A stretch of 64,000 nucleotides of DNA from Pristionchus mayeri (lineage: Eukaryota; Nematoda; Chromadorea; Rhabditida; Neodiplogasteridae). The position numbers and the translations under genes are program-made. Positions 12,409 to 62,673 of this stretch are shown here, piece after piece. The stretch spans positions 992,001-1,056,000 of the forward strand of contig BTRK01000004.1 in the NCBI GenBank assembly GCA_036245805.1, written 5' to 3'. The notes below the pieces were generated by a model. That model was given only the letters and a program-made list of their open reading frames with translations, searched no databases and was not told where the DNA came from. Each line of letters starts with the position of its first letter. The stretch's first letter is position 1.

Positions 12409-15400
12409 TGAAAGCCCAGCAAAGGGGTGAAACACAAAGTTCCTTCCTCCAGAGCCGTGCTGTCAATCGGTTCCCCGATTGAGTGTAGTAAATCCCCGTC
12501 TTCCCTTGTGAACAAACTCGCGAGTTTATGGGTTGAGCCGTTCTTTATTACGATCTAAACGAGGTAAATTAGACATAGATACGCGGAACTAATTACTAGC
12601 ACGCAAACAAACATAAATACGACTGGAAACTAGAGGAAATTAGGAGAAAATAGAGAGAAACTAGAATTGTGAGCATGGCTGACAAATTACAGCATTGGGC
12701 GATAAATATAGGGAAAATTCAAATGCCTAATTTACGGATACCGGTTACAAATCACGAACTATATTTAAATTACGATAATTTTACAGATGAATTATGAAAC
12801 GATTAATTATTTCTTCCTTTCATATCTTCCTTCTCTCGATCATAGGCCGATTCCCTTACATCTCCCCCGTCTTTCGAATTAGAGGCGTCCTCGTCTCTAT
12901 GCTCTCCTCCTCTTCTTCTTCCATCTTTCTCTCTTCTACTCCTTCCAGGTCCACCGTTGCTCGAGCCGTAGTCCTTCTCAGGACAATCCATGGCCATATG
13001 ATCTTTCGATCTGCACACGAAACACTTCCTCTTTCTCTTCCTCCTCTTCCTTTTCCTTGGTGTTCCCTCATTCTCATAAGAGCCGTTGTTCATTTCCAAC
13101 TTCAGCTCATCTGCTCCCTTGGGATCATCCTTCCAATCCATCAGATCCTCGATCAGATTAACATTTTCATTCCTCATATTGATGGGTGCATTTCCATCTT
13201 CAGACAATGCACAACTCCTCCATCTTCCAACTGACTGATGTCTCTCTAACACCAGCTCCTTATCGGTAGTATTCACCACCACAATCGGAACAACCGATTC
13301 ATCCACTGAGATCCCCTCGACGACTCCGTATATCGATGAATCCAGTCTCACAGTGCTTCCGGGCACTCCATTGATCCACACCGTTTCCGTTTTTCCTTTG
13401 GGGATCACACAGTATCTCAGCACTTTAGCCTCCACTGGATCCTCCACAGTTTCTTGTTTCATTTCGACCGTCTTGTCTGAAGCGGCCTTCTTCTCTTCTG
13501 GTGCAGTCGACGTGCTCTCTTTTTCCATTGGCAGAGCCGTCGCACTCACTTTATCTTCTGATCGAACCGTCGTGCTCTCTCGAAGCTCCACTCCGATGGC
13601 ATCCAATCCGGCTCCTCCAATTATGACACCGACTCGAATTCGTGTCACATAGAATCCTATCTTAGCCTTCCTTCCGATCTGCAGCTTAATTTCCAGCTCT
13701 GCCTTCCCACTCACATAGATGGGTCTTTGATTGGCATCGCGAAGTACTGTCTGATCATCTCTCATAATCTCGACTCCTCTCATCCCTCTGAGCAACCTCT
13801 CTTCAATGAGCGATACTTCAGCTCCCGTATCCAACATCACATTCCTCTCATGTCCATTGATAACTCCCTTCACTGTTCGAGACTTCTTGACAGCGAAGAT
13901 ACTCTCTCTGTTCTCCTTAGACTGTCCTTCGACCCTGTTCACTCCACCACTCGAATTCCCTTCCAGCATATTCTCCGAGTTTGGAGCCGTAAATGCAGCA
14001 GCGTCTGGATCCAGATGTTTCTTATGCCGAGTGGGAAATCCAACTAAGAAGTAACAGTTAGCCGTGGTATGGCCAGACTTTCTGCACCGCTCACACCATC
14101 TTGCTACCGTATCCCTCGACTCGTAAGATTGCTGCTCCATGCATCTACTTCCATCGTCCCTCCTGATTCCCTCGAGGTACTCTATCTGTATCAGCTTTTC
14201 TTTCATCTTCTCGTATGATTTGCCTTCTGCATACATCGAGATTAGTTTCTCATGCTGCTCCATTCCTTCATAGATGAGGATGAGATGGTTCCTTCTCATC
14301 GATTCCTTCTTGTCCTTATCCGACTCTAACTTCCTTGTGATTCTCTCCAGCTCATTGCACACAGTAGCAACTTTCTGTCCTTGAGCCTGAATCCTTCCCA
14401 ACTTCCTCGTGTCCTCTATCGACTCGAAAGGTGTTTCTTCAGAGAGCCGTACTTTCATCCATTCCATGACTTTGTCTAGTCCAGCTTTCTTGACCGTCTT
14501 GGGAATGTCCCAGAATGTCTCGGCAGCTTTGCCCGTGACGACCTCTCCCATCATGCATATAGCCATATCATCGTCATAGCAATCGTAGCGTAGCATGCAA
14601 CTATTGTAGAAACGGTCCCAATCCTCCTTTTTGCCTCCATACTTGTCCATCTCTGGAAGGCTACTAGCCATGAGCCGTCTCTCTTCCATGTAGCTCTCCC
14701 CATCCTTACTCCTCCTCTGCCCATTTCCACGATTACTAGAATCTGCGGGTGCACTCTGGCACTCGAGCCGTGAAATGCTTGCTCGCTTCTCCTTACATGC
14801 GCTTCCACTTTCACATGATTTCCTCCATTCTTGCAACTCTGCTACTTGGCGCATGATCTCCTTGCTATCGAATTCTTTCCTTGTGCTCTCTTGCTGCTTG
14901 GTTCCCTTTCCATCACGAGAGTCTCCATTTTCCGACTTCATTCTATTGAGGGTTTCCTCCCTCTCAGCGAGCCGTGAAGTCAACTCGGAGATCTTCTGGT
15001 CCCTCTCAGCGAGCCGTGCTTCCAACTGCAATTTCAGCGTTTCTGCCTCATCCATCTCACTTTTCCATTCCATCCTTTCAGACGCTACTCTCTTCCTTTC
15101 TTCCACTAGCTTCAATAAAAGATCGGGCAGTGACTCCACTCCTTCTCTCTCTTCTACCGTCCTAATCAATATTCGCATTCCCGAGTTCTGCTTCTCCAAC
15201 TCCTTATTAGCAGCTTCCAGCCTCTCGATCTTTTGAGCCGGAGTCTCCTCCATTTCCTCCACTTATCGATCCGTTCGTGTCTTCCTCCAAAACGTGTCGA
15301 AACGTGTCAACCACAACGCGCGTACGCAACGCGTGGGCAGTCAACAGCCGTCTGTTTTCGACTCAGTTGAGAAAACTAGCAGCACTTTGCCACCTATTTT

Positions 15401-19558: not shown

Positions 19559-21957
19559 ATGAATTCGAGAGAGCTCGCGGCGCTACTCGTGGACATACAT
19601 CTTGGTAAGAATGATGAAAAAAAGTAGGAAAATTTACTTACAAATTTAACTAAATTTATTTTTATCAAAATATATTATTTATTATCTAAAATTTAAATGT
19701 ATTCTCACAGCTGCTGGACTATTCATAAATGCACTACTTCTCTACGCCATTCACACGTTCTCCCGAAGGTCGATGGGCACCTACAAATACTTGCTGGCCG
19801 TATTTGCCGGCTTTGATGTTCTGCTCACCATATTTCACATGATAACGAATCCGGTGAGAGAATTATCCGAAGTGCCAACTCTATAAGACACAAGCAATCG
19901 TGAAAATGCAGTACGACACTTTCCAGGCGATGATCATAGTCGACTCGATCTTTGGTGTAGTCACGGATGCTCTCCTTCAAAACACGGTTCGTAATAATGC
20001 CTTTTTGTGTGCTTTATTCAATAAGTGACAATGCATTCAGAATTGGGCTATTATTGACGCATAAAATGGAAATTGTTGATGTTTCAGTACATCACCATTC
20101 TTTACTGCTCATGCGTCACCGTTCCGTTCGCGCTGATGAACATTCATTTCATCTATCGATACTGGGCGATTTGCGAGCCTCATTTGATCGCACTCTTCTC
20201 AAATAAGAGATTCATCGCTATAATTTCGGCGTGGCCTATCGTCGTATGCGCTGCATGGTGATCGAATTTATTGTTTTTTTAAAGCTGAAATGTATTATGA
20301 TTGCATAGCGTTTAGAGTTCGATAAAAGATACCTGGGTCGCATTATTCGCCACTAGGTCGGATGATCACCATCGGATGATAACCTACTGGATGATAACCA
20401 AAAAATGGACACTTCTGCAGAATTTTCGGAGAATTATTTTTGAGACTTTGGGAACCTACTGTGAAAGTTCTGCAGAAGGGTCCATTTTTTGGTTATCATC
20501 CAGTAGGTTATCATCCGACGGTGATCATCCGAGCTAGTGCCCCTCATTCCATGCAAACTTTTGCCACTTGAAGGGTCAAAAGGGTGTGTAGAATGGCGAA
20601 AAATTTATCGATGGAGCTCATTCGTGCCTTTTTGACAGAAGGTATCACGCTCTCCGGGTCCTTTAATGAATCGAGTGCATTGCATTGCATTCACTTATCA
20701 GTCCCCGTGCATTTCCCTAGAATTATCCACAGCTTCGATGCGGTAACTTCAGGTTTTCGCTGGTAAACCTCGGCATGTCGGGCGAATCGACTGACACGGG
20801 CGCTATGATTCTTCAAGATGAATATCAGCTGAGATATGGAAAGCGGATACCTGACTCCTGGATCGTCGTCGACTTTTGGGTGGTGCGCATTTTTCACATA
20901 GTTCTTTCAGGTCCTAGAGAGCTCCTCGTTACCTCACTCTTTTGTCCTCGCTATTGGAATTCCGGAATCAATTCCATCAAGGGAACCCTAGTAATAAAGC
21001 TCTCAAAAAACGTTCAAAAAACGAAGAAATTCGAATGATATGCGTCCTAAATGCAATTTCAGGATGACAAGTTGAACTTGCGAGCATTCTCGATGATGAT
21101 GGGGTGCAATGTGATCATGCTGGTTTCCTTCTGCATAGCGTCGACCTTAGCCTGCCTTACGTACCTCTCCATCTCATGGTCTGAGCTGATCTCGACCAAA
21201 ACGCGCAAGGGTCACCTCAAGTTGCTCTATGCCGTTTGCGCGCAGGTAATTTGTAAACAACTAGCGTGAGTTGTGCCCTAGAATGCCATCTTCTGGTTCA
21301 GGATGGTACGCTTTGTTGATGTATGCAGCCTAGTTACGCGGCATACAACATAATAACATAGAGCACTAATTGAAGCAATATCTCAGACGCTTGTTCCTCT
21401 TGTATACATACCGTACTTCTGCGTGAATCAACTGGCCTTTCTTCGTCTTCCGGCCTACTCGATCGATAGGTAAAAACAACTATATTTTGTCCATAGTCTT
21501 CCCGTCCTCAGGCTTTACTTATTATTATTTGAGAATTACCTTAATCGGTTCCCAGTACTTACAATTTTCAAGTCGTCCTTGCACAGGGGCAATCTTCTCT
21601 GTATTTTTTTCAATTTTAGCATGTTCATATGGAATGAACCAATACACAAATTACTTCCATTCGTGATTTTAAAAATCGCGAAAGTAAAATCCCCCACCAC
21701 ATGCACACAAGACGGGCATGTAGCCAAACGCATAGGTAACTGATAACCTCAGGACAGACTTTTGGCGCGTGGGTGGTAGAGCACGCTTTGTCTTGATAGC
21801 CGTATGCTACCTTCGTTTCGTTCCCAGGGCGTGCATGCAACTCACGGCGTGCTTCCCTGCTTGGGACGCGCTCGTCGTCATTACACTCATTCGAGACTAT
21901 CGCGTCGGCATGCAGAGATTGGTCTGGAGGAGAACCAATCAGGTGATGAGACACTAG
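19559..21957 (+). CDS. Str-type chemosensory 7TM receptor D, apparently complete
   Basis: Eight exons: 19559-19604, 19711-19853, 19912-19986, 20088-20257, 20753-20879, 21063-21245, 21387-21469, 21828-21957; 318 aa with all phases matching. Family features: MNSRELAALLVDIHLAAG start; FSRRSMGTYKYLLAVFAGFD in TM1/loop; HFIYRYWAICEPHLIALFS in TM3; a TM5 exon followed by SELISTKTRKGHLKLLYAVC; and ACFPAWDALVVITLIRDYR in TM7. It is transcribed away from receptors A and B and converges on the Srv-like receptor. Two MITEs touch the gene. One fills much of intron 4 (20350-20541). The other begins at 21952, and its first bases (CACTAG) supply the TAG stop codon, so the C-terminus was set by a transposon insertion. 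A likely G-protein-coupled odorant or ascaroside-type receptor; the ligand is unknown. Confidence 0.85.
20350..20541. repeat. Long-subtype hairpin MITE in receptor D intron 4
   Basis: About 190 bp, from CACTAGGTCGGATGATCACC to GGTGATCATCCGAGCTAGTG. Long arms contain GGATGATAACC and TTCTGCAGAA words around a centre AGACTTTGGGAACC. Near-complete palindrome. Confidence 0.82.
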
Positions 21958-27087: not shown

Positions 27088-29135
27088 CTACGCTCGAGGC
27101 GATATTGGCATTGTAGTACAGTCTATTGAGAGCTGCTTAACGTGGGTTATTTTCGGTGCTTTACCGCACTTGCACGTTAAAACTTTGATCAGATCCCTTC
27201 GGTAATCGGCCATTGATATGAGCACAGCGAGGGAGTCGAGGGGAAGGAAGGCGCTGTTGAAAAGTGGAGTTATTCGACTGATCAGATGCAGTTTCACGCC
27301 AAGCAGAGGCAGAATAATGCCGATGCAGCACGGGGAGTAGATGCACACGAGTGGAATTACGGTCTGAAAGTTACAATTTAAACACGGTACACGATGCGAT
27401 TTATACGACAGCAATTGCGGGAATTCAGATCTCATTATATTTTTTTGGGAAAGTCTCGCTGATAACTAATTCGTCTTTCCTGATTCTATGCGCCCTTTCC
27501 AGAGAACTGATAAGGTATTAATAATTCTGAATTTGTCACTTTTCACAATTCTCAATAAATACGTGTCAAAATAACATACCTGCAAACAGAGCGTAACGAA
27601 TAATTGTCGTTGTAGTCGAATCGTTTTGTCCGACATTATCGTGGCATTGCGTAAATATGAGAAGATGCCGATAAAGGCATGAACCATAAAGCCGAAGCAG
27701 AAGGACATCAGTGTGCACAAGATGAGAACTCCAGCAAGAGTTCGCAGATTGAGAGAGCCATCCTCCTGTAATTCAAGATCTTTCACTCCGTTCGGCACCG
27801 ATATGAACACAGCGAGCGAATCTAGCGGAAGGAAGACGCTGTTGAAAGGGGATTGCGCACAGAAAATTGTGTGCAATACAACGGAGACGATTCACTAGAA
27901 CTCAATCGGCAACTAAAATGGGATCTTCCAACTGACCAGGAAGTAATCGCCCATGATTATAGTGTGATTAGCTGGAACGATGGCCAATTCTAGAGACATG
28001 TTCCCTTGCATTCGAGAGCGTCCGGACTCCGTGGGCGCAAATAAGAAGTATGTGTCCAGAAACCTCAACAATCAAATTAAATGCTTTTCTATGAGATCCG
28101 GATCTTACCCTGCAATCACCACCATAAGTCCCGTAGCGAATAGCAGAGATATGAACGAAGGTTTACTAAACAACTGAATGCGCGAGGGTCTGTAAAAACA
28201 ATTAAGATTTTAAGCTTTCATCAATATTTTTCGATGTGAACCATACAAGGAACTTGTGTGGGAATATTGCCTTACGATGGAGTGAGAAATAAACTAATAA
28301 CTAAGGAAAAATACGAATTATTTTTCACTATCGTGAGGAAAAAACGGACGATGGGAAAAGGGGACAAGAGAGGATGACGCACGAGCCTAAAGAGCCCGAG
28401 TGAGTAAAATACTCTTGGAAACCTGTGCGACCACTTGTTATAAAATTCAAAAAAGAAGCTCGGCGAAACACCCAAATTTCAATTATATAAACACAAAAAT
28501 TTACGACTTCACTGCCCATAATCGATACAAAAAGCTGTAGACAACCATAACGAATGTGAGGCTGTACAACCCGAGATACGCGCTGAGAAGTTCCTCAAAT
28601 AGTGCATTACAGTATATTTTCAAAAGCCATATTGAAATGTTATTTCTCACCCTACTGATGTGGTAGTGACTTGTTGGAATTAGAACAAACATTCCCTCTG
28701 TTGTGGCAATTTTCTGAAATAAATTGTCGTTCTCGACCTGTCGATAATGTGTGTAGAATTATGGTATCGGTTCTAAGTTATTCAAATAAGTCACCTCTTT
28801 GATGAACATTTGTGCGGTTGTGTAGATAGCGTCTACTGATGCCATTGCAATCTGAATGAATTAGAATGGAATGGTTTACCATTCGAAAACATACCTGCAG
28901 ATGTCGGTATGATCCTAGATTCGCTCTTGTGCGAAACAGTAAACAGAATAGCAAAATGAAATATAAAATGAGGCCAAAAACTGAAACAAGAGAAATGCTC
29001 AATTTCGGACCATCAATTGGAATGAATTCAATATTTAAGAATATTTAATTTAAAGAAATAACATTTATATGTAAACAGTGATGGCATACCATAATTTATC
29101 TCCTCCAATGTACTGAAAAGAGTAGCCTGTACCAT
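27088..29135 (-). CDS. Str-type chemosensory 7TM receptor F1
   Basis: Nine exons on the minus strand, all in phase: 29090-29135, 28895-28980, 28795-28851, 28651-28713, 28505-28593, 28109-28189, 27937-28063, 27580-27765, 27088-27363; 336 aa. Landmarks: MVQATLFSTLEEINYG start; FRTRANLGSYRHLQ in the first loop; FLYRLWAVKSPSRIQLF after TM3; a loop with TYFLFAPTESGRSRMQG; TIRLQRQLFVTLCLQ before TM6; and FLPLDSLAVLISMADYRRDL at TM7. F2 (45.9 kb) and F3 (55.5 kb) share exactly the same exon structure, and a decayed F4 lies at the window edge. Intron 7 contains a relic of a second TM7 exon. The gene looks intact. Likely located in sensory cilia; the ligand is unknown. Confidence 0.86.
27788..27862 (-). 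pseudogene. Relic TM7 exon inside receptor F1 intron 7
   Basis: The minus strand reads PFNSVFLPLDSLAVFISVPN, nearly the same as the real TM7 of F1 (LFNSAFLPLDSLAVLISMAD). It lies in the intron just upstream of the TM5 exon. It looks like the stump of a tandem duplicate or a misplaced gene-conversion tract. Confidence 0.7.
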
Positions 29136-32232: not shown

Positions 32233-32329
32233 CACACTTTTTCTTCAAATCGCTCTAATTCGCTTGCAAATCATCCTATGTGTATGGGACCTTGACCATA
32301 TTATCTCCCTTGACGAGCGCTTTCAAAAT

Positions 32330-33430
32330 TTGATCTTTGATCTTTGTAGTTTGTAGTTTGATCTTTTTCTTCAAATCGCTATAACTTGGTTCAAACGTAT
32401 CCGTGCGACTTCGGACCTTGACTATTGGCATCCCCGCGATGAACACTTTCAAAATTTGACACTTGATCTTTGATCTCTTTCTTCAAATCGTTCTAACTCG
32501 GCTCAAAATCATCCTACAGCGCTACGACCTTGACCGTTGGCATCCCCACGATGAGCACTTCCAAAATTTTAAACTTGATCTTTGATCTTTGATCTTTTTC
32601 TTCAAATCGCTCTAGCTTTGCTCAAACACGTCCGTGTGACGTCGGACCTTGACCATTGGTATTCCCACGTCGAGCGCTTTTAAAGTTTGATCTTTGATCT
32701 TTGATCTTTGTAGTTTGATCTTTTTCTTCAAATCGCTCTAACTCGCTTCAAAATCATCGTAGAAGGTTAGGACCTTGACCGTTGGCATCCCCACGTCGAG
32801 CGCTTTTAAAGTTTGATCTTTGATCTTTGTAGTTTGTAGTTTGATCTTTTTCTTCAAATGGCTCTAACTCGCTTCAAAATCATCGTAGAAGGATAGGACC
32901 TTGACCGCTGGCATCCCCATGGCGAGCGATTTTAAAGTTTGATCTTTGATCTTTGTAGTTTGTAGTTTGATCTTTTTCTTCAAATGGCTCTAACTCGCTT
33001 CAAAATCATCGTAGAAGGATAGGACCTTGACCGTTCGCATCCCATGCTGAACGCTTTTAAAGTTTGATCTTTGATCTTTGTAGTTTGTAGTTTGATCTTT
33101 TTCTTCAAATGGCTCTAACTCGCTTCAATATCATCGTAGAAGGATAGGACCTTGACCGTTCGCATCCCCATGCTGAACGCTTTTAAAGTTTGATCTTTGA
33201 TCTTTATAGTTTGATCTTTTTCTTCAAATGGCTCTAACTCGCTTCAAAATCATCGTAGAAGGATAGGACCTTGACCGCTGGCATCCCCATGGCGAGCGCT
33301 TTTAAAATATGAAACGTGATCTTTGATCTTTGATCTCTTTTCTTCAAATCGCTCTAACCTGGCTCAAACACGTCCGTGTGACGTCGGACCTTGACCGTTA
33401 GCATCCTCACGACGAGCACTTTCAGCACAC
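32330..33430. repeat. Satellite array, ~122-126 bp unit
   Basis: About nine units of a sequence containing TTTGATCTTTTTCTTCAAAT, then GGCTCTAACTCGCTTCAAAA, then AGGACCTTGACCGTT and GCATCCCCA. Units diverge at the edges and are most alike in the middle (about 32700-33300), as expected for homogenisation by unequal exchange. Confidence 0.85.
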
Positions 33431-33831: not shown

Positions 33832-34007
33832 TTAAAGACGAGCGAGTTGATCGTCTCCAACGGCCTGGCGATGAGGAGGAGCGCTGAAACACACAACATG
33901 AGATCATTTTTAAAAATATTTAAATGTTATATTTTGTTCAAAATGCAAACGCACCGAGCGAAGGCGACGGCGAGAAGGAGAAGGGCGATGAGGAAGAAGC
34001 GGAACAT
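33832..34007 (-). CDS. Small secreted peptide, 34 aa
   Basis: Two exons on the minus strand: 33955-34007 and 33832-33883, joined in phase 2. The product is a near-ideal signal peptide (MFRFFLIALLLLAVAFA) followed by RAPPHRQAVGDDQLARL and a stop. The splice junctions are CG|GTGCGT and TTTCAG|CGC. A TATATAA-like box lies about 35 nt upstream. The predicted mature part is 16-17 residues with a few basic residues but no dibasic site, so it could be a neuropeptide-like or antimicrobial-type peptide. I recognise no family. Because it is so short the call rests on the signal peptide, splice phase and promoter together. Confidence 0.5.
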
Positions 34008-36293: not shown

Positions 36294-37465
36294 TTAGGTT
36301 GAACAGAAAGTCTTTATAAACTGTTTTGCTCGATCACTGCTCAGTGCACGAGACCTTTGGTGTTCCCTCGCCTCTAGTGAATAACACATGACAAAGGGAC
36401 TATGTGGTCAACAACTCCCCATTCCACGCCTTTCATTCTGCCACTAGTAAGACCACGATGTTTGTTCCCACGGCCTTGCACATCCGCAACGTTCCGTTAT
36501 TCGTATTCCTCTCTCACACTACAATGAAGGAATAGGAACGTCAGTTGGCTGAAGTGTACGATTCATATGCCACTCACTACCAGACCATGCGCAATTGGTA
36601 CCAACTCTTCGAGAAGGGGGACTTTTCCATGGATGATCATGACCGGTCTGGGAGGCCACCCGAGCTGGATTTGGATGCGCTACGGATCGTAGTGGAATTG
36701 GATCCTTTCCAAATACCCGCGACATGGCAGCCACACTTGGGGTTTCGCAAAGCACCATCGTAAAATGATTGGTCTCCATTGGCAAGAAGAAGAAGCTAGG
36801 CCGTTTCATACCCCACAAATTGACCCAAGACCAGTTTGACCACCGTGTCGACGATTCCCTTTCTCTACTCACTCATCACGCTGGAGATCGATGGTTGGAC
36901 CGTCTCATAACAGGGGTCGAGAAGTGGTTCTGCTATGAGAATCACCATAGGAGGGCACAGTGGGTGGATGCCAATGAGACCCCACAGGACGTCGCAAAGC
37001 CTGACCTTCACCCTATGAAAATCTTGCTCTCTGCCTGGTGGGGAGTGGATGGCCCGATTTACTGGGAGCTCCTACCCGAGAAGCGGATAATTACTGGATA
37101 TGTCTACACTAAACAACTACGGAATCTCAAGAAGAAATTCGCACAATCTGCCCTGAACGGCAAGAAAGTGCACTATCAACACGATAACGCCCGACCCCAT
37201 GTTGCACGGCAGGTCAAGCAGGAGCTGTCCAAATACGGCTGGATGGTTCTCCCTCATGCACCGTATTCTCCTGGCTTGGCCCCTTCGGATTATTGGTTGT
37301 TCTCGGATCTGACCCGTCATCTCGATCAGAGATCCTTCACTTCCCGTGGGGTGATCGAGGCCGCACTCAAGCAATACAATGGTGCATACGTTTGATTTCG
37401 CTCTTGCGCTTTATTGTCAGAAGAAGGGATATAAAAAGTTTATAAAGACTTTCTGTTCAACCTAA
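36294..37465 (+). mobile_element. Inactive mariner transposon nested in foldback element 1
   Basis: Terminal inverted repeats TTAGGTTGAACAGAAAGTCT and its inverse, TA on both sides, 1172 bp. The internal gene is a mariner transposase: DRSGRPPELD-type helix-turn-helix linker, QHDNARPHVA, and HAPYSPGLAPSDYWLF. It is broken by a frameshift near 36700-36715, an in-frame TGA just before 36769, and a change of the first catalytic Asp (TGVEKWF where TGDEKW is expected). Confidence 0.9.
36545..37395 (+). pseudogene. Mariner transposase, broken
   Basis: A cut-and-paste DDD/DD34D transposase of the mariner group. The N-terminal DNA-binding part is open at 36545-36763 in one frame. The catalytic part is open at 36769-37395 in another. 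The second and third catalytic Asp (QHDNARPH, APSDYW) remain; the first is Val (ITGVEKWF). The start region before 36545 has a stop in frame with the first Met. Not functional. Confidence 0.88.
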
Positions 37466-38734
37466 TATAATAAAAAGGAGGGAGAAGTTCAAAAACTTGA
37501 ATTTACTAAAATTCATATTTTCCAGTCCTTTGCTCATTTGATCAATATTTGAAAAATAATTGTATGTAAACTAACCGTTTATGAAACTAATCATGTCTCA
37601 TAACTTATTTACTGTGGCATGTAGTACCTAAAAATGTCGAACCGAATGACTCAAGTTGTACATATTTTCCTTATTACTTCCAAAATGACGTCATTTTGAC
37701 CAAAAAAACACGGTTTTTTGAGTCCAGTGGCGTGCAATCACATTTTCGTGGAGAATGGCCTCGAAAATCGTGTTCTACGGTTGAAAATACACTGAAAACA
37801 TCTTTTCATTAGGACACTTCGACTTTTTGACATCCCCACAGCCAACTGAAAATGAGTTTTGGAAAATTTTTAATTCAAGTGTATTGTTAAGCAGATGGAC
37901 ACTGGAAATTTTCATAGATGATGTTTTAAAGTGTTTCCAAGGCAATATAAACTTCTATTGGCACGAAAATCGAAATTGCGTGACGACCTATACGGCATTT
38001 TGACGGTTATGACGCAATTTCGACCTAAATTTCATCAAATATACATGATTTTAAAATTCTGATATTTTGAGGCTAAGTATTATTTAACACGTAGATTCTT
38101 AAAATCATAGCTAGAATACTCCGAAATTTTTCAATTTTTTACAATCGAGCAAAATATGACCGGAAAAGTGGTTTTTCGACCAAACCTTTTTGTTTCGCAT
38201 TTTCTGGCATTCTAATATCGAAATTTGTTTTCTATGAGTGAAAATACGTCAGAATATATACTTTCCATCTAATTCTGAGATATCGACTTTTTCGACCCCA
38301 AAAATTAGGGGTGCCCTAAACTTTTTCAAAATCGGTCCCCAGCCTTAGTTATAGCGGCCGTCAATCAGCACTCGGGGCCTACACTTTAAAAAAAATAAGG
38401 GAATCATCGAATTTTTGGCCATCCGTGGACCCCTGCACAGTTGTTACGTTCTCTCGTGGAGGGTCTCTTAAGATATGAGATTAAAATATGACCGGTAAGC
38501 CAAACGCAAGGCAGATTGAACAAGACAGACTGAACTCTGAATTGGCGCGTGGGGCGAAAGTTCACACCTTGTCGTGATAGTCGTACACTTTATACTTAAT
38601 CTTTTTAAAATCTAATATTAATATGTATACATCTAGAGGAAACACCGCTTGAAAAACAATAGATCATGAGCGTCAGCTTTAGTAATTCGGGTAATTGCAT
38701 TTTCTTACTCAATCAATCGACCTTTATCACTTAA

Positions 38735-39639
38735 GAGACCCTCCTCGAGAAAACGTAACAACTGTGCAGGGGTCCACGGATGGCTAAAAATTAGATAATT
38801 CGCATACTTTTTTCTGAGGTGTAGGCCCCGAGTGCTGATTGACGGCCGCAATAACTAAGGTTTAGGGTCGATTTTTGAAAAAGTTTCAGGTACCCCCCAC
38901 TTTGGGGGTCGAAAAATTCGATATCTCAGAATTATGCGAGATATAGATATTCTGGTGTATTTTCACTCGTAGATAACGAATTTTGATATCACAATGCTAG
39001 AAAATGCGAAATTAAAAAATTTTTCGATTTTTTTAACGAATTTCGATTTTTAATTGCTACCACTGCACATAGGAAGATGCAAATGATTATACTAGTCATA
39101 AGAAAGTGTTTCCAGATCAATAAATATACATTCAGTGAAAATTCAGCGTTCTGTATGGCGGAATATTTGCCGATTTACCCCAAAAATCGAAGTTTGGATC
39201 AAAATATCTCAAAAATATGTCATTTTAAAATTCTGATTTTCTCAGTTTAGGGCCAACTTTTTATGGTGATTTCAAAAATCGTATCGAGAGCCTGCGCAGA
39301 AAATTTTAAAATATCGATTATTCGCAATAATTGACCGAAAAAGTGGTTTTTTGATGTTATCTTTTTCATTTCGTATTTTCTAGAATCGTGATATCAAAAT
39401 TCGTTATCTACGACTAAAAACACACCAGAATATCTATATCTCGTCTAATTCTGAGATATCGAATTTTTCGACCCCCAAAGTGCCTGAAACTACCTGAAAC
39501 TTTTTCAAAATCGACCCTAAACCTTAGTTATTGCGGCCGTCAATCAGCACTCGGGGCCTACAGTTCAGAAAAAAAAGTATGGTAATTATCTAATTTTTAG
39601 CCATCCGTGACCCTATTACGTTCTCTGGTGGAGGGTCTC
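38735..39639. mobile_element. Foldback DNA element 2 (TTAA target)
   Basis: 905 bp, flanked by TTAA at 38731-38734 and 39640-39643. Starts GAGACCCTCCTCGAG and ends TGGTGGAGGGTCTC. It has the same end sequences as element 1, and the arms fold back over most of the length. Confidence 0.8.
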
Positions 39640-39939
39640 TTAAAGCACTTATCGCATGGCAAAAATGGTCTCAATATACTCATCTCAAAATATGATCAAT
39701 ATGTATTGTTTGCCATTTCAATGTAGATGTATATAAATAATTTGCATGCGATCTTGATTACTACATTAGGTTGCGTCACGATACGGTGGCCATGACCGAT
39801 GCTTTAAGCGTGAATCTCGTGCACTTAAATTTGTTCAAAACAGAGAAGTCAAAAGAGATAGCATGGAGGCGGGGCAATTTCGAGAGATCCGGTTCGGAGC
39901 ATACAAAAGGTGGTGTTACAGTGAGATGGTTAGCCCAGA
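39640..39939. promoter_or_regulatory. Upstream region of the peptide-array gene
   Basis: About 300 bp between foldback element 2 and the start codon at 39940. A TATA-like TACAAAA at 39902-39908 lies 32 bp upstream of the ATG. Nothing else is recognised. Confidence 0.4.
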
Positions 39940-41877
39940 ATGAAGGCTCTCACAGTGTGTTTCGCACTCCTGGCGATCATCGCCTCTGTTCTGTAAGTTA
40001 ATTTTCGAATATACTTGCTGATACGTTAATATCCAGAGCCGGCGGGCGTACGATCGGTCTGGCCTCTCCTGACATGGTATGAATGGTTCTGTTTTTTCCT
40101 TCATCCTTTCTTCTTTAGGCCACATTCGAGGCAGTTGCCGACAAACGAGTGAAGAGACGTACGGTCGACGGGCGTAACCTCATCTCTCCTGACATGGTAT
40201 GAATGGTTCTGTTTTTTCCTTCATCCTTTCTTCTTTAGGCCACATTCGAGGCAGTTGCCGACAAACGACTGAAGAGACGTACGGTCGACGGGCGTAATCT
40301 CGTCTCTCCTGACATGGTATGAATGGTCCTGTTTTTTTTCTTTTCTTCCTTAGGCCACATTCGAGGCAGTTGCCGACAAACGAGTGAAGAGACGTACGGT
40401 CGACGGGCGTAACCTCATCTCTCCTGACATGGTATGAATGGTTCTGTTTTTTCCTTCATCCTTTCTTCTTTAGGCCACATTCGAGGCAGTTGCCGACAAA
40501 CGACTGAAGAGACGTACGGTCGACGGGCGTAATCTCGTCTCTCCTGACATGGTATGAATGGTCCTGTTTTTTCCTTCATCTTTTCTTCTTTAGGCCACAT
40601 TCGAGACAGTTGCCGACAAACGAGTGAAGAGACGTACGGTCGACGGGCGTAATCTCGTCTCTCCTGACATGGTATGAATGGTCCTGTTTTTTCCTTCATC
40701 TTTTCTTCTTTAGGCCACATTCGAGGCAGTTGCCGACAAACGAGTGAAGAGACGTACGGTCGACGGGCGTAACCTCGTCTCTCCTGACATGGTATGAATG
40801 GTCCTGTTTTTTCCTTCATCTTTTCTTCTTTAGGCCACATTCGAGGCAGTTGCCGACAAACGAGGGAAGAGACGTACGGTCGACGGGCGTAACCTCGTCT
40901 CTCCTGACATGGTATGAATGGTCCTGTTTTTTCCTTCATCTTTTCTTCTTTAGGCCACATTCGAGGCAGTTGCCGACAAACGAGTGAAGAGACGTACGGT
41001 CGACGGGCGTAACCTCGTCTCTCCTGACATGGTATGAATAGTCCTGTTTTTTCCTTCATCTTTTCTTCTTTAGGCCACATTCGAGGCAGTTGCCGACAAA
41101 CGAGTGAAGAGACGTACGGTCGACGGGCGTAACCTCGTCTCTCCTGACATGGTATGAATGGTCCTGTTTTTTCCTTCATCTTTTCTTCTTTAGGCCACAT
41201 TCGAGGCAGTTGCCGAGAAACGAGTGAAGAGACGTACGGTCGACGGGCGTAACCTCGTCTCTCCTGACATGGTATGAATGGTCCTGTTTTTTCCTTCATC
41301 TTTTCTTCTTTAGGCCACATTCGAGGCAGTTGCCGACAAACGAGTGAAGAAACGTACGGTCGACGGGCGTAACCTCGTCTCTCCTGACATGGTATGAATG
41401 GTCCTGTTTTTTCCTTCATCTTTTCTTCTTTAGGCCACATTCGAGGCAGTTGCCGACAAACGAGTGAAGAGACGTACGGTCGACGGGCGTAACCTCGTCT
41501 CTCCTGACATGGTATGAATGGTCCTGTTTTTTCCTTCATCTTTTCTTCTTTAGGCCACATTCGAGGCAGTTGCCGACAAACGAGTGAAGAGACGTACGGT
41601 CGACGGGCGTAACCTCGTCTCTCCTGACATGGTATGAATGGTCCTGTTTTTTCCTTCATCTTTTCTTCCTTAGGCCACATTCGAGGCAGTTGCCGACAAA
41701 CGAGTGAAGAGACGTACGGTCGACGGGCGTAACCTCGTCTCTCCTGACATGGTATGAATGGTCCTGTTTTTTCCTTCATCTTTTCTTCTTTAGGCCACAT
41801 TCGAGGCAGTTGCCGACAAACGAGTGAAGAGACGTACGGTCGACGGGCGTAGCCTCGTCTCTCCTGACATGGTATGA
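39940..41877 (+). CDS. Multi-copy secreted peptide precursor built from tandem 78-nt exons
   Basis: Exon 1 (39940-39992) encodes a signal peptide (MKALTVCFALLAIIASVL). Exon 2 (40037-40076) encodes a partial repeat ending SPDM. Fifteen 78-nt exons follow, starting at 40119, 40239, 40354, then every 120 bp from 40474 to 41794. Each encodes 26 aa: ATFEAVAD, KR-V-KRR, TVDGRNLVSPDM. The introns are about 42 nt (one is 37), start GTATGA and end TTTAG; all are phase 0. Cleavage at the two basic sites would release TVDGRNLVSPDMATFEAVAD, with the junction residue V (sometimes L or G) lost. The last exon has no acceptor after it, so it reads into GTATGA and stops (SPDMV); total about 422 aa. Variants (E for D before KR, KKR for KRR, T for A) keep the basic sites. 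Neuropeptide-type precursors share this architecture, but I do not recognise the peptide. The opposite-strand open frame is a periodicity artefact. Confidence 0.85.
40119..41871 (+). repeat. Tandem exon-intron repeat, 120-bp unit, 15 copies
   Basis: Each unit is one 78-nt exon plus one 42-nt intron, almost identical in both parts; the second intron is 5 bp shorter. Units 1-2 and 3-4 share paired variants (V then L at the KR-x-KRR position, I then V in NLxSPDM). This suggests that a two-unit block was duplicated. Confidence 0.92.
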
Positions 41878-42021
41878 ATGGTCCTGTTTTGCGTTTCCCC
41901 TCTACCCCCTCGCGTCCATGCTAAGTACCGGTTAGCCGTTCTTTCGTCGTTCGTGCCAGCAACACGTGTTGATGGTCTTCCCCGTTTCGTTGTATTTTTG
42001 TCTCGTGGAGCTAAGGTTCGT

Positions 42022-42027
42022 AATAAA
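42022..42027 (+). terminator. Poly(A) signal of the peptide-array gene
   Basis: AATAAA lies about 145 nt downstream of the stop codon at 41875-41877, in non-repetitive sequence. Confidence 0.55.
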
Positions 42028-42143
42028 GGTTCTTTTTGATATCCTAGCATTATCTTAATACACTGTATACGTGGGATAAGGGATCAATTGGTATCTCAGG
42101 TGTACTGTAATCGTAGAATCACTTGGCCCTAGTGCTATCTTAT

Positions 42144-43075
42144 GAGACCGTCCACCAGAAAACGGAAAAGGGTCACGGTTTGTCAAAAAATGGATTTCCT
42201 CTATACTTTTTTCCTGAAGTAAGGGACCAAAGTTAGGAATGCAGGCACCATTGGCTAAGGTCTGGGGTCACTTTTGAAAAAGATACCGTAACCCCTCATT
42301 TTTAGGGGTGAAAAAAATTTCCACGAAAAGTTTCGTTTTAATTGTTTTTCTGGTGTATTTTTTCAAGTAGATACCGAATTTCTATGTCAAAGTGGTTCAA
42401 AGTGAGAAATAAAAAAGTTAGAGCCAAAAAATCGATTTTCGCGATCCAAAATCCCACATAAACGGTCAAAACTTTCTTTAAAAAAATAATACTTTGGGTG
42501 ATTAGCATTTTTCGAAAGTTCATCATATGATACGTCTATGAGAATTTTTGCAGAATTTTAAAAATGGCCATTCATGCTCAAATTTCGGCCCGAAATTGGA
42601 TCTATGGCTAAAAATTGTGAAAAAGACTTGATATTTTTGAACGTAGATACTGTTTCCGGCCTCCAGTCACCTTCAAATTCGGAATACATGTCTTTCTAGA
42701 TCATATACACGTGTTCATAAGCAAAAAATATCAAAATTGAAAATTTTAAAAATTTCGATTTTTTCGGTGAAAATGGTCGAAAAATCGAAATTTTAAAAAT
42801 TTTCCATTTTGACAATTGTTGCATGTGGACACGTTTATATGATCTAGAAAGACATGTATTCCAGATTTTAAGATGATTGGAGGTCGGAAACGGTATCTAC
42901 ATTCTAAAATATCAAGCCTTTTTCACGATTTTTAGCCATAGTCCAATTTCGGGCCGACATTTGAGCATGAATAGCCATTTTTAAAATTCTGCAAAAATTC
43001 TCGTAGACGTATCATATGATGAACTTTCGAAAAATGCTAACTTTCGAAAAATGCAAAAATGTAATTCAATTAGCG
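42144..43075. mobile_element. Foldback DNA element 3, right end lost
   Basis: Begins GAGACCGTCCACCAGAAAAC after TTAT. The inner arms fold back (TTCATCATATGATACGTCTA against its inverse at about 43010). The outer left arm (42144 to about 42480) has no partner on the right, so the element is truncated near 43075. Confidence 0.65.
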
Positions 43076-43304: not shown

Positions 43305-45171
43305 GAGAGACTTTCTGAGAGAACTGAGCAATTTTACCTATAAGCCGTACAGCAAAACATGAAATTTCTCCTAAAATTATCCCTAGGGGTAACTTTTCAT
43401 GTAGAGTTCGAAAATCGACCTTAGAAAGCCGTATCTCCAACCCCTCATTTCCTGTGTTGCACTGCATCTGAGCGGTCGGTTTTTGTAAATCGTGAACGGT
43501 AGCTCCAAACTCCATACATGTATAGTAATTCTTAAAGATCTCGACGAGATAAGCATTTTTCTTGTTGTAAGTGAAGGGCTAGCTCATCTGTGAAAAAAGA
43601 TCTGACCGTTTGAATGTTGAAAAAAATCATCATAAATTTGGATGCCGTAATTATTCGCTTTTTTATTCTTACATTCGATTCCTCGATGAAAACTACCCCT
43701 AGGGTTTTATTTTCATGGAAAATTTCGTTCCTGTAAAGGGTCCGCCAAGATGCCGAAATAAGACGCTTTCCATGTTTTGCCAATATATGCAGTTCTCAGC
43801 CGCGCCGATGTGAACCACGATTAAATCTACCTGTCGTATGACTATACTAAGCTAGGGCAATAATATCCCGAAGAGAAAATTACGTTATCTCAATTTTGAA
43901 AAAAATCGATTTTTTCCTTGTCGATTTTGCCCATGTTTAGGCGCATTCAACTTTTCCTTTTCAATCCTAATTCCTAATTTTCTTAGCAAATCTAGTAGTA
44001 CGCATGGATGTAAGTCAGAAAATATTAAATATAGGGCCATCAGCAATAAGTAAGTTAGGCATGAGTTTGTTTAAAAATGTAATATTGAGAGCATCGGAAA
44101 AGAACAAAATTAAATTTCAAGCGCTGTTTCGCGCGAATGTGTCACATTTTAGCATAATAATTCTTCGCAAAGCCAAACTAATCGGCTTGTACGTATTATT
44201 GCGAAATATCAGTCGTTTTCGAAAAAATATATATTTTCATGTGTCCAAAAAATTATTTTTTTAAAAAGATGAAGGTAGGAGTCATTTTCAATGTATATTT
44301 TAGTTGTGCGACGTTGTAACCATTGCATTGTGTAACAATTTAAGCACTATTCCCGTAAAATTATCTTATTAGAATTTAAAATATTTTATTTTACCACGCG
44401 ACATTGCATTTTCATGCAAATTTATGCCTAACTTACTTATTGCTGATGGTCCTATATTTAATATTTTCTGACTTACATCCATGCGTACTACTAGATTTGC
44501 TAAGAAAATTAGGAATTAGGATTGAAAAGGAAAAGTTGAATGCGCCTAAACATGGGCAAAATCGACATGAAAAAAATCGATTTTTTTCAAAATTGAGATA
44601 ACGTAATTTTCTCTTCGGGATATTATTGCCCTAGCTTAGTATAGTCATACGACAGGTAGATTTAATCGTGGTTCACATCGGCGCGGCTTAGAACTGCATA
44701 TATTGGCAAAACATGGAAAGCGTCTTATTTCGGCATCTTGGCGGACCCTTTACAGGAACGAAATTTTCCATGAAAATAAAACCCTAGGGGTAGTTTTCAT
44801 CGAGGAATCGAATGTAAGAATAAAAAAGCGAATAATTACGGCATCCAAATTTATGATGATTTTTTTCAACATTCAAACGGTCAGATCTTTTTTCACAGAT
44901 GAGCTAGCCCTTCACTTACAACAAGAAAAATGCTTATCTCGTCGAGATCTTTAAGAATTACTATACATGTATGGAGTTTGGAGCGACCGTTCACGATTTA
45001 CAAAAACCGACCGCTCAGATGCAGTGCAACACAGGAAATGAGGGGTTGGAGATACGGCTTTCTAAGGTCGATTTTCGAACTCTACATGAAAAGTTACCCC
45101 AAGGGACAATTTTATTGGAAATTTCATTTTTTGCTGTACGGCCTCTTCTAAATTTTCTCAGACGGTCTCTC
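43305..45171. mobile_element. Large foldback DNA element 4 (TTAT duplication)
   Basis: 1867 bp, flanked by TTAT at 43301-43304 and 45172-45175. The left end GAGAGACTTTCTGAGAGA is the inverse of the right end TCTCAGACGGTCTCTC, imperfectly. Arms of about 760 bp enclose a loop of about 350 bp (44065-44410). The arms are nearly identical, so the same 83-codon frame appears inverted at 43532-43783 and 44703-44954. I consider that frame a by-product, not a gene. Confidence 0.8.
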
Positions 45172-55499: not shown

Positions 55500-57491
55500 C
55501 TACAATGACAATCTCGCATGGGGCGAAACAGTCATTGTGGTACAGTCAACTGAAGGCTGTATGTGGGTTATTTTTGGTGTTTTGATGCACTTGCACGTGA
55601 TAATCCTGATCAGATCCCTGCGGTAATCAGCCATTGAGATGAGGACAGCGAGAGAATCTAGCGGAAGGAAGGCGCTGTTTAGAAGGGGAGTGAATCGACA
55701 GAGCTGGAGCAGCTCGACTCGAAATATCGGGGAGAGAATCCCGAAGCCGCACGGGGTGTACAGACACAGAAGGGGAACGATCGTCTGAAAATTCAATATA
55801 TTTAGAAATTACATGTTTTGTCTTCTAGTGCAAGGAATATCAAATTTTTTTTAACAATTATTCAACGAAAAAAACGGTCGCCTTCATTTTTCTTCTCATT
55901 ATTTTAGCAAAATATTTGTCAAAACAAGGGCAATCATACCTGCCAGCAGAGCGTGACGAACAACTGCCGCTGGAGTCGAATAGTAACGTCAGACATGAGC
56001 CTGGCCTTGTGCAAGTACGAGAAAATACCGACGAACGCATAAATCATGAACCCGAAACAGCTGGCCATCACTATGCATAGAATAATTACTGCAGCGATAG
56101 GCTTCGGATTGAGTGAACCGTCCTCCTCAATTGTTCAGTTGATGTTTGACCAGCTGATTCCGAGAAGCCGTTCGAACGATCACCCGGAATGTGTTCAAAA
56201 ATCTCACACAGCGAACACTTGATTATTTAAAAACATTTTTTTTATTACTTACCAGGTAGTAATCTCCCATTATCATCGTCTGATTAATAACGTCAATGCC
56301 CAACTCTTCAGCCGCGTTTGGACGCAATCGTCGGAGCCCACTCGCAGTAGGCGCATAAAAGAATAAGCAAACGGCAAACCTCAAAGTGTCAACGTTCGAA
56401 GATCTATAGGGACTGTTTATCTTAGTCCATCCAAAAAGGTTCATGACACGGAAGGCGGAGTTGACTCCGTCTCCCCCGTATCATGAGTCATTAGGGTCCG
56501 ATCTATGGCAAAAGATCAAAGATCATATTACCATATTCTCGGCGTGTTACAAAACTATTAGCTCACCATGTAATTACTTGACTCATTGCAATAGCAAACA
56601 GTAGAAAGATGAACCAAGGTTTTGAAAACAATACGCTGTGGGTGGGTCTGAAAAATTAGTCCATGTTGCGTTAATAAATTGTAAAAAATAAGCGAAAAAC
56701 TAACGACTTCACAGCCCATAATCGATACAAAAAACTGAAGTCAATCATTGCGAAAGTGAGGTTGTACAAGGCGAGATAGGCACAGAGAACTTCCTGAAAA
56801 GGTCCAATTCTCCGGTTCATCCCTAAATGAATATGTTAACTTCATCCGGGAAATACAAGGAACTGTACAATACCTCTCCAGTTCTACATGACAACTCGTT
56901 TTAAAAATGCATTTTCTCATGGGCATAAAAAGTAATGAATAATTTCTCACCATGCTGATATTGTATCGACTTGTTGGCATTAGCGCGAACAAACCCTCAA
57001 CTAAAGCCATCCTCTGAAAATCTTTTATTAGTTTTAGTTCCAAGTTTCGATCTTTTACTAGACATCAAGCAAGTACAAAAGGCAGTAAATAACGAGGAAT
57101 AGTTTCGTACGGATATATCTCATATATGCCCGATTCTCTCGCGATTCATGCCTTTTTTATATGAATAAGTAACCTCTTGCATGAAGATTTGTGCTATGGT
57201 GTATGCAGCGTCGACAGATACCATGGTAATCTGAAGCAAATATAATATCTTCATATGTCATTCGAAAACGTGCCTGTAGATATCGGTATGTTCCCAGATT
57301 TGCTCGCGTGCGAAAGAGTAAGCAGAAGAGCAAAATGCAGTATAAAAGAAGGCCGAGTACTGAAATGAGGTTCAACTTCCGAGGCCACAATATCGGTGCA
57401 AGGGCTGGAAAACATCAAGACTAATAATTTATAAAAAGATCATGCCATAATTTATTTCCTCAATGTGGTTGAACAGAGTAGGTCGTGCCAT
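55500..57491 (-). CDS. Str-type chemosensory 7TM receptor F3
   Basis: Nine exons, same structure as F1 and F2: 57446-57491, 57274-57359, 57174-57230, 56951-57013, 56705-56793, 56567-56647, 56253-56379, 55940-56125, 55500-55784; 339 aa in phase. Landmarks: MARPTLFNHIEEINYG start; FRTRANLGTYRYLQ; FLYRLWAVKS; LFFYAPTASGLRRLRP; TIRLQRQLFVTLCWQ; and FLPLDSLAVLISMADYRRDL. Introns 1 and 2 both start with GC (ATG|GCATGA and CAG|GCACGT). Exon 1 and its upstream region are duplicated at 59231-59495. Confidence 0.83.
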
Positions 57492-59757: not shown

Positions 59758-62673
59758 TCAGGCGAGAGCTCTGATGTGCATGGTGTTCCAGTTAGAGCTT
59801 CGTGCTTGATTGAGAAAATTTGGGCCTGTTGCTTTGCGGAAAGAGTCGCTCCATCTCGTGATTGGGCGGCCACGGCTCCTCTTTCTCCGCGGAATCCATT
59901 CGATCACAGATCGGCTCCACTTCCGGCAATCATCATTCGCGATCTTATGCAACCAAAACCATTTCCTTTTCTGAGCAGTGCGAACGAAGTCCTGAACTCT
60001 AGTTGAATCTCGCAACCTCTCATTAGAGACATGATCGAGCACAGTACAGCCAACCATCCAACGTTCCATTTTTCTTTGAGCCACCGATAATCGATTCATT
60101 CGTGCTTTGGTCAGCGCCCAACATTCACAACCGTAAACCACAGCGGGAAGTATGCAGCCGTTGAAAAGCCGACGTTTATGTGCCATTGGAATACCCTTGT
60201 TGATAAGAAAAGTGCGGTGTTTGTGGAAAGCACCAAAACCAGCTTGAATGCGTCGGGTGATTTCACAGTCATCATTTCCGCTGACTGCGATTGCGCTTCC
60301 CAAGTAGACCACCTTATCTTGCAATTTTACTACTTTTCCTCCTATTCTTACATCCCTTGGATCAGGCTTGGAACTCATTCCGACAGTTTTATCGCCATTG
60401 AGACCCAATCCCACTGTAGCAAGTACACGCTCTAATTCCCTTCCCATCGTCTGAATCTGTCGTTCATCGTGAGAAATGAGAACGGCATCATCAGCAAAAA
60501 GAATATGGGACAGAAACCGACCATTGATACTTACTCCCTTATTTGCCCAATTTAGCCGACGGAATGCCATATCTAGAACCGCAGTGAATAGCCTAGGTGA
60601 CAAACAATCACCTTGTCGCACACCCCTTCCCACCTTTATGTTGACCTCCTTGCCATTAACCACCACCACATTTCTACTTTCCTGGGAAAGGCTTGCGAGG
60701 AAAGAAACGACTTCCGAGGGAATCCCTTCTAACTCTATCGCCTTAAACACCGCTTCCGTGTATACACTGTCAAAGGCCTTCGAAATGTCTACAAAAAGCA
60801 GATAGATCGGTAGCCTATAGTCGACACAGTGAGCAATGACAGACTTTAGAGTGTGGATAGCGTCAACTGTGGAATGACCACGTCTGAATCCCATTTGTTC
60901 CCAGCTTCTATTTCCATCCAGTACCGATCCATACCTCTTGTTGAGCAACCCAGTTAGCGCTTTCTGCAAAACAGGAAGCAGACTAATAGGTCTGTAGTTT
61001 TTTGTAAGAGTTGGATCCCCAGATTTTGGTAGAAGAATTGTGCGAGATTCCCCAAATCCCAGAGGAATAGAACCCAAAATGATGTTGTTAAAGTGATTGG
61101 TGAGAGTGGGAACTAACTGATCTACCCCCACTCGGAGCATTTCACCTGTGATACCATCCCTTCCCGGAGCTTTGCCTGATTTGAAATACCGAAGTATTTG
61201 AACGACTTCGGCTTCTACGATGGGAACGAAAGGATCCCTTGCTATCTCCTCGCGGTATCCAACCCCTCCATCCCCACTATAGAGAGCATTGTAGAAAGAT
61301 TTGAATGCCTCCTCTATGCCCGTTTGAGTGAAGACTAAGTTCCCATTACCGTCCCTAATGCGTGAAATGCTATCCCTCCCAATTGCTAAATTTCTAGTTG
61401 CCCTTTTGTAACTTTTCCCAAGCGCAATGGCCTCGTCTACGTAGGAAAGGAGGGATTTATCCCGGTCGTTTTTAAACGACTCCCTAAGCGCCCTGTTGAT
61501 AAGTAACCATTCCTCTCGAGGAACCCCCACCGCGTCCATTTTTAGTTCCCTCCTACGAATCAACAAATCCCTGGTCTTTTGGGATAACCTACTGCCCGGC
61601 GGTCTGAACGATGTTGAAATTCTCCCCGCTTCTTGCACTGCCGAGACCACGTTACCGTAATCCAAGCTCGCACCTCTGCGCTTCAATTCTATGCCTAAGC
61701 TGAATTTAAATAAATCGTTGTTGAGGTGCGAGTCCCCCCTTGCCGGTCTATTGCAACCACGACGAAATCTGAATGAGAATGATATGGTAGATCTAACCAA
61801 TCGATGATCGGACGAGAAGTCGAACCGATTAACCACTCCCACATCCAGCACCCGAAGACCCTTTGGGAACAGAATGTAGTCTATCTCGTTCTTAGTGCGC
61901 CCATTGGGTGAAACCCATGTGAATTTTCTAGTACCCCGTTTTTGAAAGAAACTGTTACCAACCCGTAGTTGCAACCTCTCGCAGAGATCCACAACCATTT
62001 GGCCCTTTACATTTCTATTCCCATATCCAAACTTCCCCACTGCACTTTCTCCTGGCTCGCAGTAACCCACTTTCCCATTGAAATCGCCCAGGATGACCTT
62101 ATGCACGAATCGATACCGGTGACTGCCTGAGACTGGTCCGTTGAATCCTCTTTCAACCTCATGGATGAAGTTACTGTACTCGACCACGTCATCGCAGGCG
62201 GGTGCGTAGATCTGGAATAAGCGAATCAGGACCTTATCCGACACCGCTACATCAAGGAAACAGATCCTGGGAGTTAGAACTCAAAATCCGACTACCTTCT
62301 GCTTTACCTCCCCACTCACGATGAAACCAACTCCAGCAGTACGGTTAGGAAGGCGCGATGAATGATAGAGTCTTCCATTGCTCCACGTGAGATCCTTCTC
62401 TTCTTCTGTCGATCTTCGAACTTCAGAGAGTCCAACGATGTCCGCCTTGATCTTGCTTAGGGCGTTCTCCAATTCCACGATACGAGCATCCTTGCATAGC
62501 GTTAGGCAGTTGAGCGTAGCCAGCGATAAAACAGCCATGAGCATGGTCATACAATGCCACGGTGACCACTCCGGCTTGGCAAGGGATTCAAAAATGACGG
62601 AGCGCAAAGCGAACCGACCGGCAGGGAATTCAGCGCCGACTGAGAACTTAGTTGCGCCGACTGAGAAGCGCAA
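59758..62673 (-). mobile_element. RTE-type LINE, nearly full length, one in-frame stop
   Basis: The endonuclease N-terminus (LATLNCLTLCKDARIVELEN, then DIVGLSEVRR) is open at 62284-62673 and stops at a single TGA (62281-62283). The same frame then runs unbroken from 62280 to 59758. It includes the rest of the AP-type endonuclease (YAPACDD, VILGDFNGKVG, NEIDYILFP, SSDHRLV) and an RT with YLLFVDISKAFDSVY, GVRQGDCLSPRLF and HILFADDAVLIS. It ends with WTLTKA-like WALTKARMNRLSVAQRKMER. This is the RTE clade. Apart from the stop it looks intact, so it is a young copy. The 5' side carries small direct repeats (GCGCCGACTGAGAA). Confidence 0.88.

Follow-up and report, generated by a model that had tools for sequence, protein, structure and literature searches.

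A predicted seventeen-exon array gene in Pristionchus mayeri as a candidate source of multicopy secreted peptides

The predicted array gene and its genomic setting

The window, i.e., the whole stretch of 64,000 nucleotides analysed here, corresponds to C4:992001-1056000 in a Pristionchus mayeri assembly of 290.8 Mb and 73 contigs, six of which measure 39.7, 44.6, 46.5, 48.8, 50.3 and 57.3 Mb. Str-type chemoreceptor Pfam matches above the curated score were obtained for 3 out of 10 scanned window proteins (9432-9665, minus strand; 19650-19883, plus strand; 27469-27891, minus strand), and a weak one, below that score, is located at 57160-57414 (minus strand). Str being a nematode family, these matches led us to take the window as nematode DNA. 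Further inhabitants of the window include an 840-residue open frame (59761-62280, minus strand) matching reverse transcriptases (E 9.6e-29) and, below threshold, endonucleases; an 819-residue open frame (12806-15262, minus strand), perhaps a retroelement gag-like piece, with matches to gag-type aspartyl proteases and zinc knuckles that are both sub-threshold; and a transposase piece (36769-37392, plus strand; Transposase_1, E 4.5e-26). A U6 snRNA match at 21541-21639 (minus strand) barely exceeds the Rfam gathering score (48 vs 44 bits). A tandem array at 32237-33422, made of 9.7 copies of 126 bp that are 81% alike, is broken by stops in all six translations and displays no visible peptide-like pattern.

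The predicted array gene that is the subject of this study lies on the plus strand, with foldback elements on both sides, at 38182-39609 and at 42502-43040 and 43344-45142. The last of these is an inverted repeat of 740 bp that is 98% complementary, has a spacer of 319 nt and probably represents a young foldback element. A location of the array inside one foldback element was rejected, as the array is enclosed by none of the nine inverted-repeat pairs identified between 37500 and 46000.

According to TRF, positions 40064-41890 contain 15.3 copies of a 120-bp unit, with 97% matching. A plus-strand splice model through this repeat remains open for 422 codons over 17 exons, with GT/AG at all 16 introns, the lengths of which range from 37 to 44 nt. 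Exon 1 (39940-39992, 53 nt) begins with the ATG at 39940, encodes the putative signal-peptide sequence MKALTVCFALLAIIASV(L), and ends in phase 2 at GTAAGT; it harbours an early basic residue and a hydrophobic core scoring 2.98 in a simple Kyte-Doolittle scan. After intron 1 (44 nt, phase 2), exon 2 (40037-40076, 40 nt) is a partial repeat that, joined to exon 3, encodes the first 20-mer, GGRTIGLASPDM before the junction and ATFEAVAD after it. Intron 2 (40077-40118, 42 nt) runs from GTATGA to TTTAG and, if retained, would present an in-frame TGA stop as its second codon. The array proper, exons 3 to 17, consists of 15 units of 78 nt (40119-41871) separated by 14 introns (13 of 42 nt and one of 37 nt), and its commonest unit is ATFEAVADKRVKRRTVDGRNLVSPDM. 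The 15 introns following exon 2 are all in phase 0, share an identical GTATGA start and end with TTAG; intron 4 (40317-40353), the sole array intron of 37 nt, has a shorter pyrimidine tract and may be spliced poorly. Neither stop, frameshift nor loss of a splice dinucleotide was found in the 15 units. In every one of them, the GTATGA donor reads in frame as Val followed by a stop, so whole peptides need splicing. The 422-residue precursor itself terminates as ...SPDMV at the donor-like GTATGA of the last unit (41872-41877), which likewise reads V and stop and has no unit downstream.

Upstream of the ATG, two elements were recognised by eye on the plus strand, namely, a TATA-like sequence TATATAAATA at 39730-39739, a candidate promoter element, and, directly before the ATG at 39936-39939, a CAG followed by a, which may be an acceptor for trans-splicing or splicing. 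Much of this anatomy had been described in the original prediction. The signal-like exon, the partial repeat exon and the fifteen tandem exon-like units of exactly 78 nt are indeed present; the intron length of 42 nt given there applies to 14 of the 15 array introns, and the uniform phase 0 to these 15 introns, intron 1 being in phase 2 owing to the 53 nt of exon 1.

A long repeat will copy any accidental feature fifteen times, and the array could in principle be a noncoding satellite that resembles exons by accident. Controls for this reading were made with criteria chosen after the gene had been seen. When the 120-nt unit was dinucleotide-shuffled 5000 times and both strands were read, 1.12% of the shuffles allowed any frame-preserving exon/intron solution, a proportion that falls to 0.08% if a furin motif is required and to 0.04% if two or more dibasic sites are required as well. 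Signal-peptide-like ATG exons ending at a donor occur twice in the 128,000 strand-bases of the window, one being that of the array gene, and are absent from 265,440 strand-bases at 21 other loci of this genome, which are rich in transposons and mostly repeat-bearing. These rates, together with relatives that share the 5' region and carry excess silent change (see below), make a chance origin of the exon-like anatomy unlikely, and we give the satellite reading next to no credence. Coding by the minus strand, where a frame made of 40-residue repeats is open for 501 codons (40418-41920), deserves very little more. One open 120-nt unit stays open on repetition, and a random frame of 40 codons has a chance of about 15% of being open (0.147, assuming equal codon use); a stop in exon 5 (40415-40417) closes the minus-strand frame, which has no adjacent signal-exon candidate, the sole one on the minus strand being at 33832. 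The minus-strand frame was therefore rejected as a chance opening.

Predicted peptides and variation among the units

Within each 78-nt exon, a basic linker separates the C-terminal portion of one peptide from the N-terminal portion of its successor, and each predicted 20-mer is split by an intron between TVDGRNLVSPDM and ATFEAVAD. Each 20-mer is encoded across two exons and not as a module within one, a point missed in the original prediction. The repeated peptides are flanked by 15 linkers of the form KR-x-K(R/K)R. The KR-x-KRR motif, at first attributed to every 26-residue module, is found in 14 of the 15 units, whereas exon 13 carries KR-V-KKR, which lacks the furin-type motif R-x-KR and offers only dibasic pairs. 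Apart from this R to K change, the linkers vary at position x alone (V, L or G). Cutting at KR-x-K(R/K)R would release 14 internal 20-mers, a 39-residue N-terminal piece and a 13-residue tail. The internal peptides comprise ten exact copies of TVDGRNLVSPDMATFEAVAD and four single-residue variants (two with I, one with T and one with E). The calculated monoisotopic MH+ values are 2107.996 for the common 20-mer, 2122.012 for the variants with I or E, 2138.007 for the one with T, 1978.954 for the N-terminal 20-mer described below and 1375.689 for the 13-residue tail. The 20-mer is acidic (charge -3) and contains one proline; the predicted peptides end with VAD or VAE, and neither an amidation glycine nor an RF motif is present in them. 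According to the (-3,-1) rule of signal peptidase, the signal peptide is probably cut after ...SVLA, which would leave an N-terminal GGRTIGLASPDMATFEAVAD of 20 residues, like the internal peptides.

The regular 26-residue repeat behind a signal peptide would also suit an acidic/basic repeat protein that is itself the product, secreted or structural, and remains uncut, the basic linkers then being charge clusters instead of cleavage sites. This is improbable in our view, given that 14 of the 15 linkers combine R-x-KR with another basic pair, that only x varies among the linkers apart from the one R to K, and that the first segment is also 20 residues long.

With regard to variation within the array, about 13 variant events were counted, corresponding to 8 exon types, 4 intron types and one deletion. 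Among the eight exon variant types, seven change the encoded residue, against an expected nonsynonymous fraction of about 0.73, and diversity amounts to 0.019 in the exons and 0.024 in the introns, the latter value being drawn from the fourteen 42-nt introns with the 37-nt one excluded. Since nonsynonymous types prevail and exon diversity is near intron diversity, no present constraint is visible, and the variation among units looks neutral. The array is young, and its 120-bp unit has probably been multiplied by unequal exchange.

Decayed relatives, the 3' end and homologue searches

An in-register search of the whole genome with the module gave 15 matches, all in the array, and nothing else at E values up to 10; in its assembly, the array is genuine and present as a single copy. 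When a 27-base exon pattern was searched with up to three mismatches, 17 places were retrieved, i.e., the 15 units together with C1:34083738 and C6:42866184, and the backward control of this pattern gave 0 matches. A DNA search of the genome matched the array 15 times and three places outside it, 18 matches in all, thereby adding a unit at C1:34089241. These decayed relatives, L035 and L036 at C1:34083616-34089330 and L034 at C6:42866062-42866219, keep ATFEAVADKRVKR-like codons as well as the 5' region, which by DNA comparison is 88% alike between them and the window (39797-39860, plus strand). The two C1 pieces lie about 5.5 kb apart, and the intervening sequence is, in our reading, LINE-like with an ATG-repeat tail. 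The C6 copy is part of a block whose longest pieces show 97.7-99.0% identity with the C1 locus; L034 and L035 are thus near-duplicates and do not constitute independent tests. The signal exon was not found at the C1 and C6 relics, and a genome search with it retrieved only the array gene and a chance-level C1 match (E 2.1, 34% identity).

The relics carry a stop or have lost an acceptor. Over stretches picked by hand, silent changes relative to the array consensus, with an expected fraction of 0.236, account for 8 out of 17 in L034 with L036 (P 0.029) and 9 out of 18 in L035 with L036 (P 0.013), both counts including the L036 stop codon; without it, they become 8/16 (P 0.019) and 9/17 (P 0.008). 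In the first relic unit, the exon has diverged less than the intron, both in L034 (5/51 vs 15/39, P 0.001) and in L035 (6/51 vs 14/40, P 0.008), while in the second unit exon and intron divergence do not differ (13/52 vs 9/42, P 0.74). The excess of silent change and the exon conservation in the first unit argue for an origin from a gene, and suggest protein-level selection on the ancestral gene.

The 3' end of the array gene has another source. The AATAAA poly(A) signal of the original prediction is present at 42022-42027 (plus strand) and lies, together with the 3' region, in an old LTR fragment, the 3' part of a dispersed LTR of about 390 bp (41898-42140 at the longest match, plus strand); the hexamer is also found in the LTR copy L047. 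The 3' region of the window has a match at all 18 dispersed places compared, some of the matches starting only at about 42014. When L047 was compared with the other 17 copies, 12 shared 389-399 bp and five 258-368 bp. Two pairs of copies on C5, 22598926/22607088 and 16760915/16769079, are in the same orientation about 8.2 kb apart, a spacing as expected for retrotransposon LTRs. When L047 served as query, no significant counterpart of the first 170 bp or so of the LTR was found in the window, and the tandem array stops at 41890, a few bases short of the longest LTR match; for these reasons, the original 3' end seems to have given way to the LTR fragment, which could supply polyadenylation.

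The main rival to a functional peptide gene is a remnant of one. The array may be a recent 120-bp minisatellite within a dying secreted-peptide gene, which lost its 3' end to the LTR insertion and then expanded neutrally as a remnant with little or no product now. The neutral-looking 7:1 ratio of nonsynonymous to synonymous variant types, the similar exon and intron diversities, the 3' end in an LTR fragment, the decay already reached by the C1 and C6 relatives, and the foldback elements on both sides are all in keeping with it. The 15 units devoid of stop, frameshift and splice-dinucleotide loss, and the basic residues kept in every linker, count against it, weakly in view of the approximately 13 variant events. 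We consider this scenario possible, if doubtful.

A search of the module against nematode proteomes had been proposed as a check. In the protein database used, the nematode coverage of which is uncertain, a precursor shortened to 240 residues gave one meaningless match (E 6.7) among the best 7996 candidates by shared words, and an 84-residue version found no match in its 151 candidates, both searches covering proteins of up to about 420 residues. As a control, the 840-residue reverse transcriptase of the window found a 78% identical relative in the same database and at least 87 matches, most of them without organism name, with no nematode protein among the named ones. The absence of homologues is consequently weak evidence, and the same holds for the lack of a described NLP homologue in these protein searches. 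No homologue of the precursor was found in the PDB, tblastn on phage records gave no match, and Pfam returned for the shortened precursor only unrelated matches that fell short of the curated score (Mesothelin, E 0.00011; HC2; DUF7686). Four peptide strings were absent from the 5.39 million open papers searched and, among the papers listed for tandem-exon or micro-exon peptide genes, none described anything resembling the array gene, judging by title and the start of the abstract.

Proposed reading and comparison with known systems

Taken together, the anatomy is best read as a lineage-restricted multicopy secreted-peptide gene, with an apidaecin-like layout and a processing similar to that of nematode polyproteins or neuropeptides, to which we assign a probability of about 0.6. 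The open 422-codon splice model with its shuffle and signal-exon controls, the segment of exactly 20 residues behind the predicted signal-peptide cleavage site, the K/R-X-K/R-R site in 14 of the 15 linkers, and the decayed relatives with their excess of silent change argue for it. The neutral-looking array variation, the second relic unit without exon/intron difference, the apparent loss of the original 3' end to the LTR, the missing homologues, the lack of an amidation glycine, a common neuropeptide feature, and the exon 13 linker argue against it. The secreted, convertase-processed multicopy precursor of the original prediction is therefore retained as the best reading of the anatomy, while the active hormone or effector that it also put forward stays hypothetical, in view of the neutral-looking unit variation and of the homologue searches that found nothing.

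According to the secreted-peptide reading, the transcript would start with the signal-peptide exon, and sixteen very short introns would be spliced out. The 422-residue precursor would then enter the secretory pathway, where signal peptidase would probably cut at the predicted site, convertases cleave at KR-x-KRR and carboxypeptidases remove the basic residues. Up to 14 copies of the 20-mer or a one-residue variant would be produced along with the N-terminal peptide and a short tail, and these acidic, non-amidated peptides may be put to a signalling-type use. The 3' end now consists of an intron donor with a stop as its second codon, followed by the LTR fragment. Since every 20-mer is interrupted by an intron, and an in-frame stop stands at the start of each of the 15 array introns, we can also propose, as an unlikely elaboration, that the array is splice-gated. 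Each unit would act as a switch, splicing adding a 20-mer and retention ending the precursor with the alternative 13-mer TVDGRNLVSPDMV; how many introns are spliced would thereby determine the amount of peptide and the proportion in which a single gene makes its two products.

The combination of many near-identical mini-exons, intron-straddling peptides, a stop-bearing donor in each unit and an LTR-derived 3' end is unusual. If the gene is expressed, its peptide yield would hang on the splicing of many minimal introns, providing a natural test of splicing fidelity across near-identical introns, and it would show a peptide signal born, amplified and re-ended by a transposon in one lineage.

Apidaecins are insect antibacterial peptides, proline-rich and cationic. 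The honeybee apidaecin gene is described as having several exons, each encoding a peptide, so that separate exons bring the copies of a multicopy precursor (PMC3415428), which makes it the closest precedent found for the exon layout. The array gene differs in that its 20-mer is acidic, with one proline in 20 residues, a comparison made by description, and in that each of its peptides is split over two exons. With regard to nematode FLP and NLP precursors, the likeness resides in the signal peptide, the repeats between basic pairs, and the processing by convertase and carboxypeptidase (PMC4196577). Unlike them, the array gene lacks the amidation glycine and the RF motif; FLPs are recognised by a C-terminal RF-glycine before the basic site, whereas the array peptides end with VAD or VAE. 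For the C. elegans flp genes, exon numbers of 2-6 and precursor lengths of 66-184 residues are given (PMC4196577), and with 17 exons and 422 residues, the array gene would, if expressed, represent an extreme multicopy nematode peptide gene.

The reported cleavage site of nematode polyproteins, K/R-X-K/R-R (PMC3079579), recalls the array linkers, 14 out of 15 of which carry R-x-KR, that of exon 13 excepted. The units of the tandem NPA/ABA-1 polyprotein are, however, folded helical lipid-binding proteins, whereas that of the array gene has 26 residues, and Pfam gave no match to the NPA profile in the shortened precursor. For the KEX2-processed repeat proteins (KEP) of fungi, the opening lines of the abstracts mention no tandem mini-exon structure. 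In schistosome micro-exon genes (MEG), secreted products likewise derive from numerous very small exons that are symmetrical (PMC4350168; PMC10526429), as are the 78-nt exons of the array, but the introns of MEG are long and reach up to 5 kbp (PMC10526429), while those of the array gene measure 37-44 nt and its exons are nearly identical. If the gene is expressed, these introns would likewise stand apart from those of one-to-one orthologues in other nematodes, for which mean lengths of 340 bp (C. elegans) and 633 bp (Haemonchus contortus) are given (PMC4054779).
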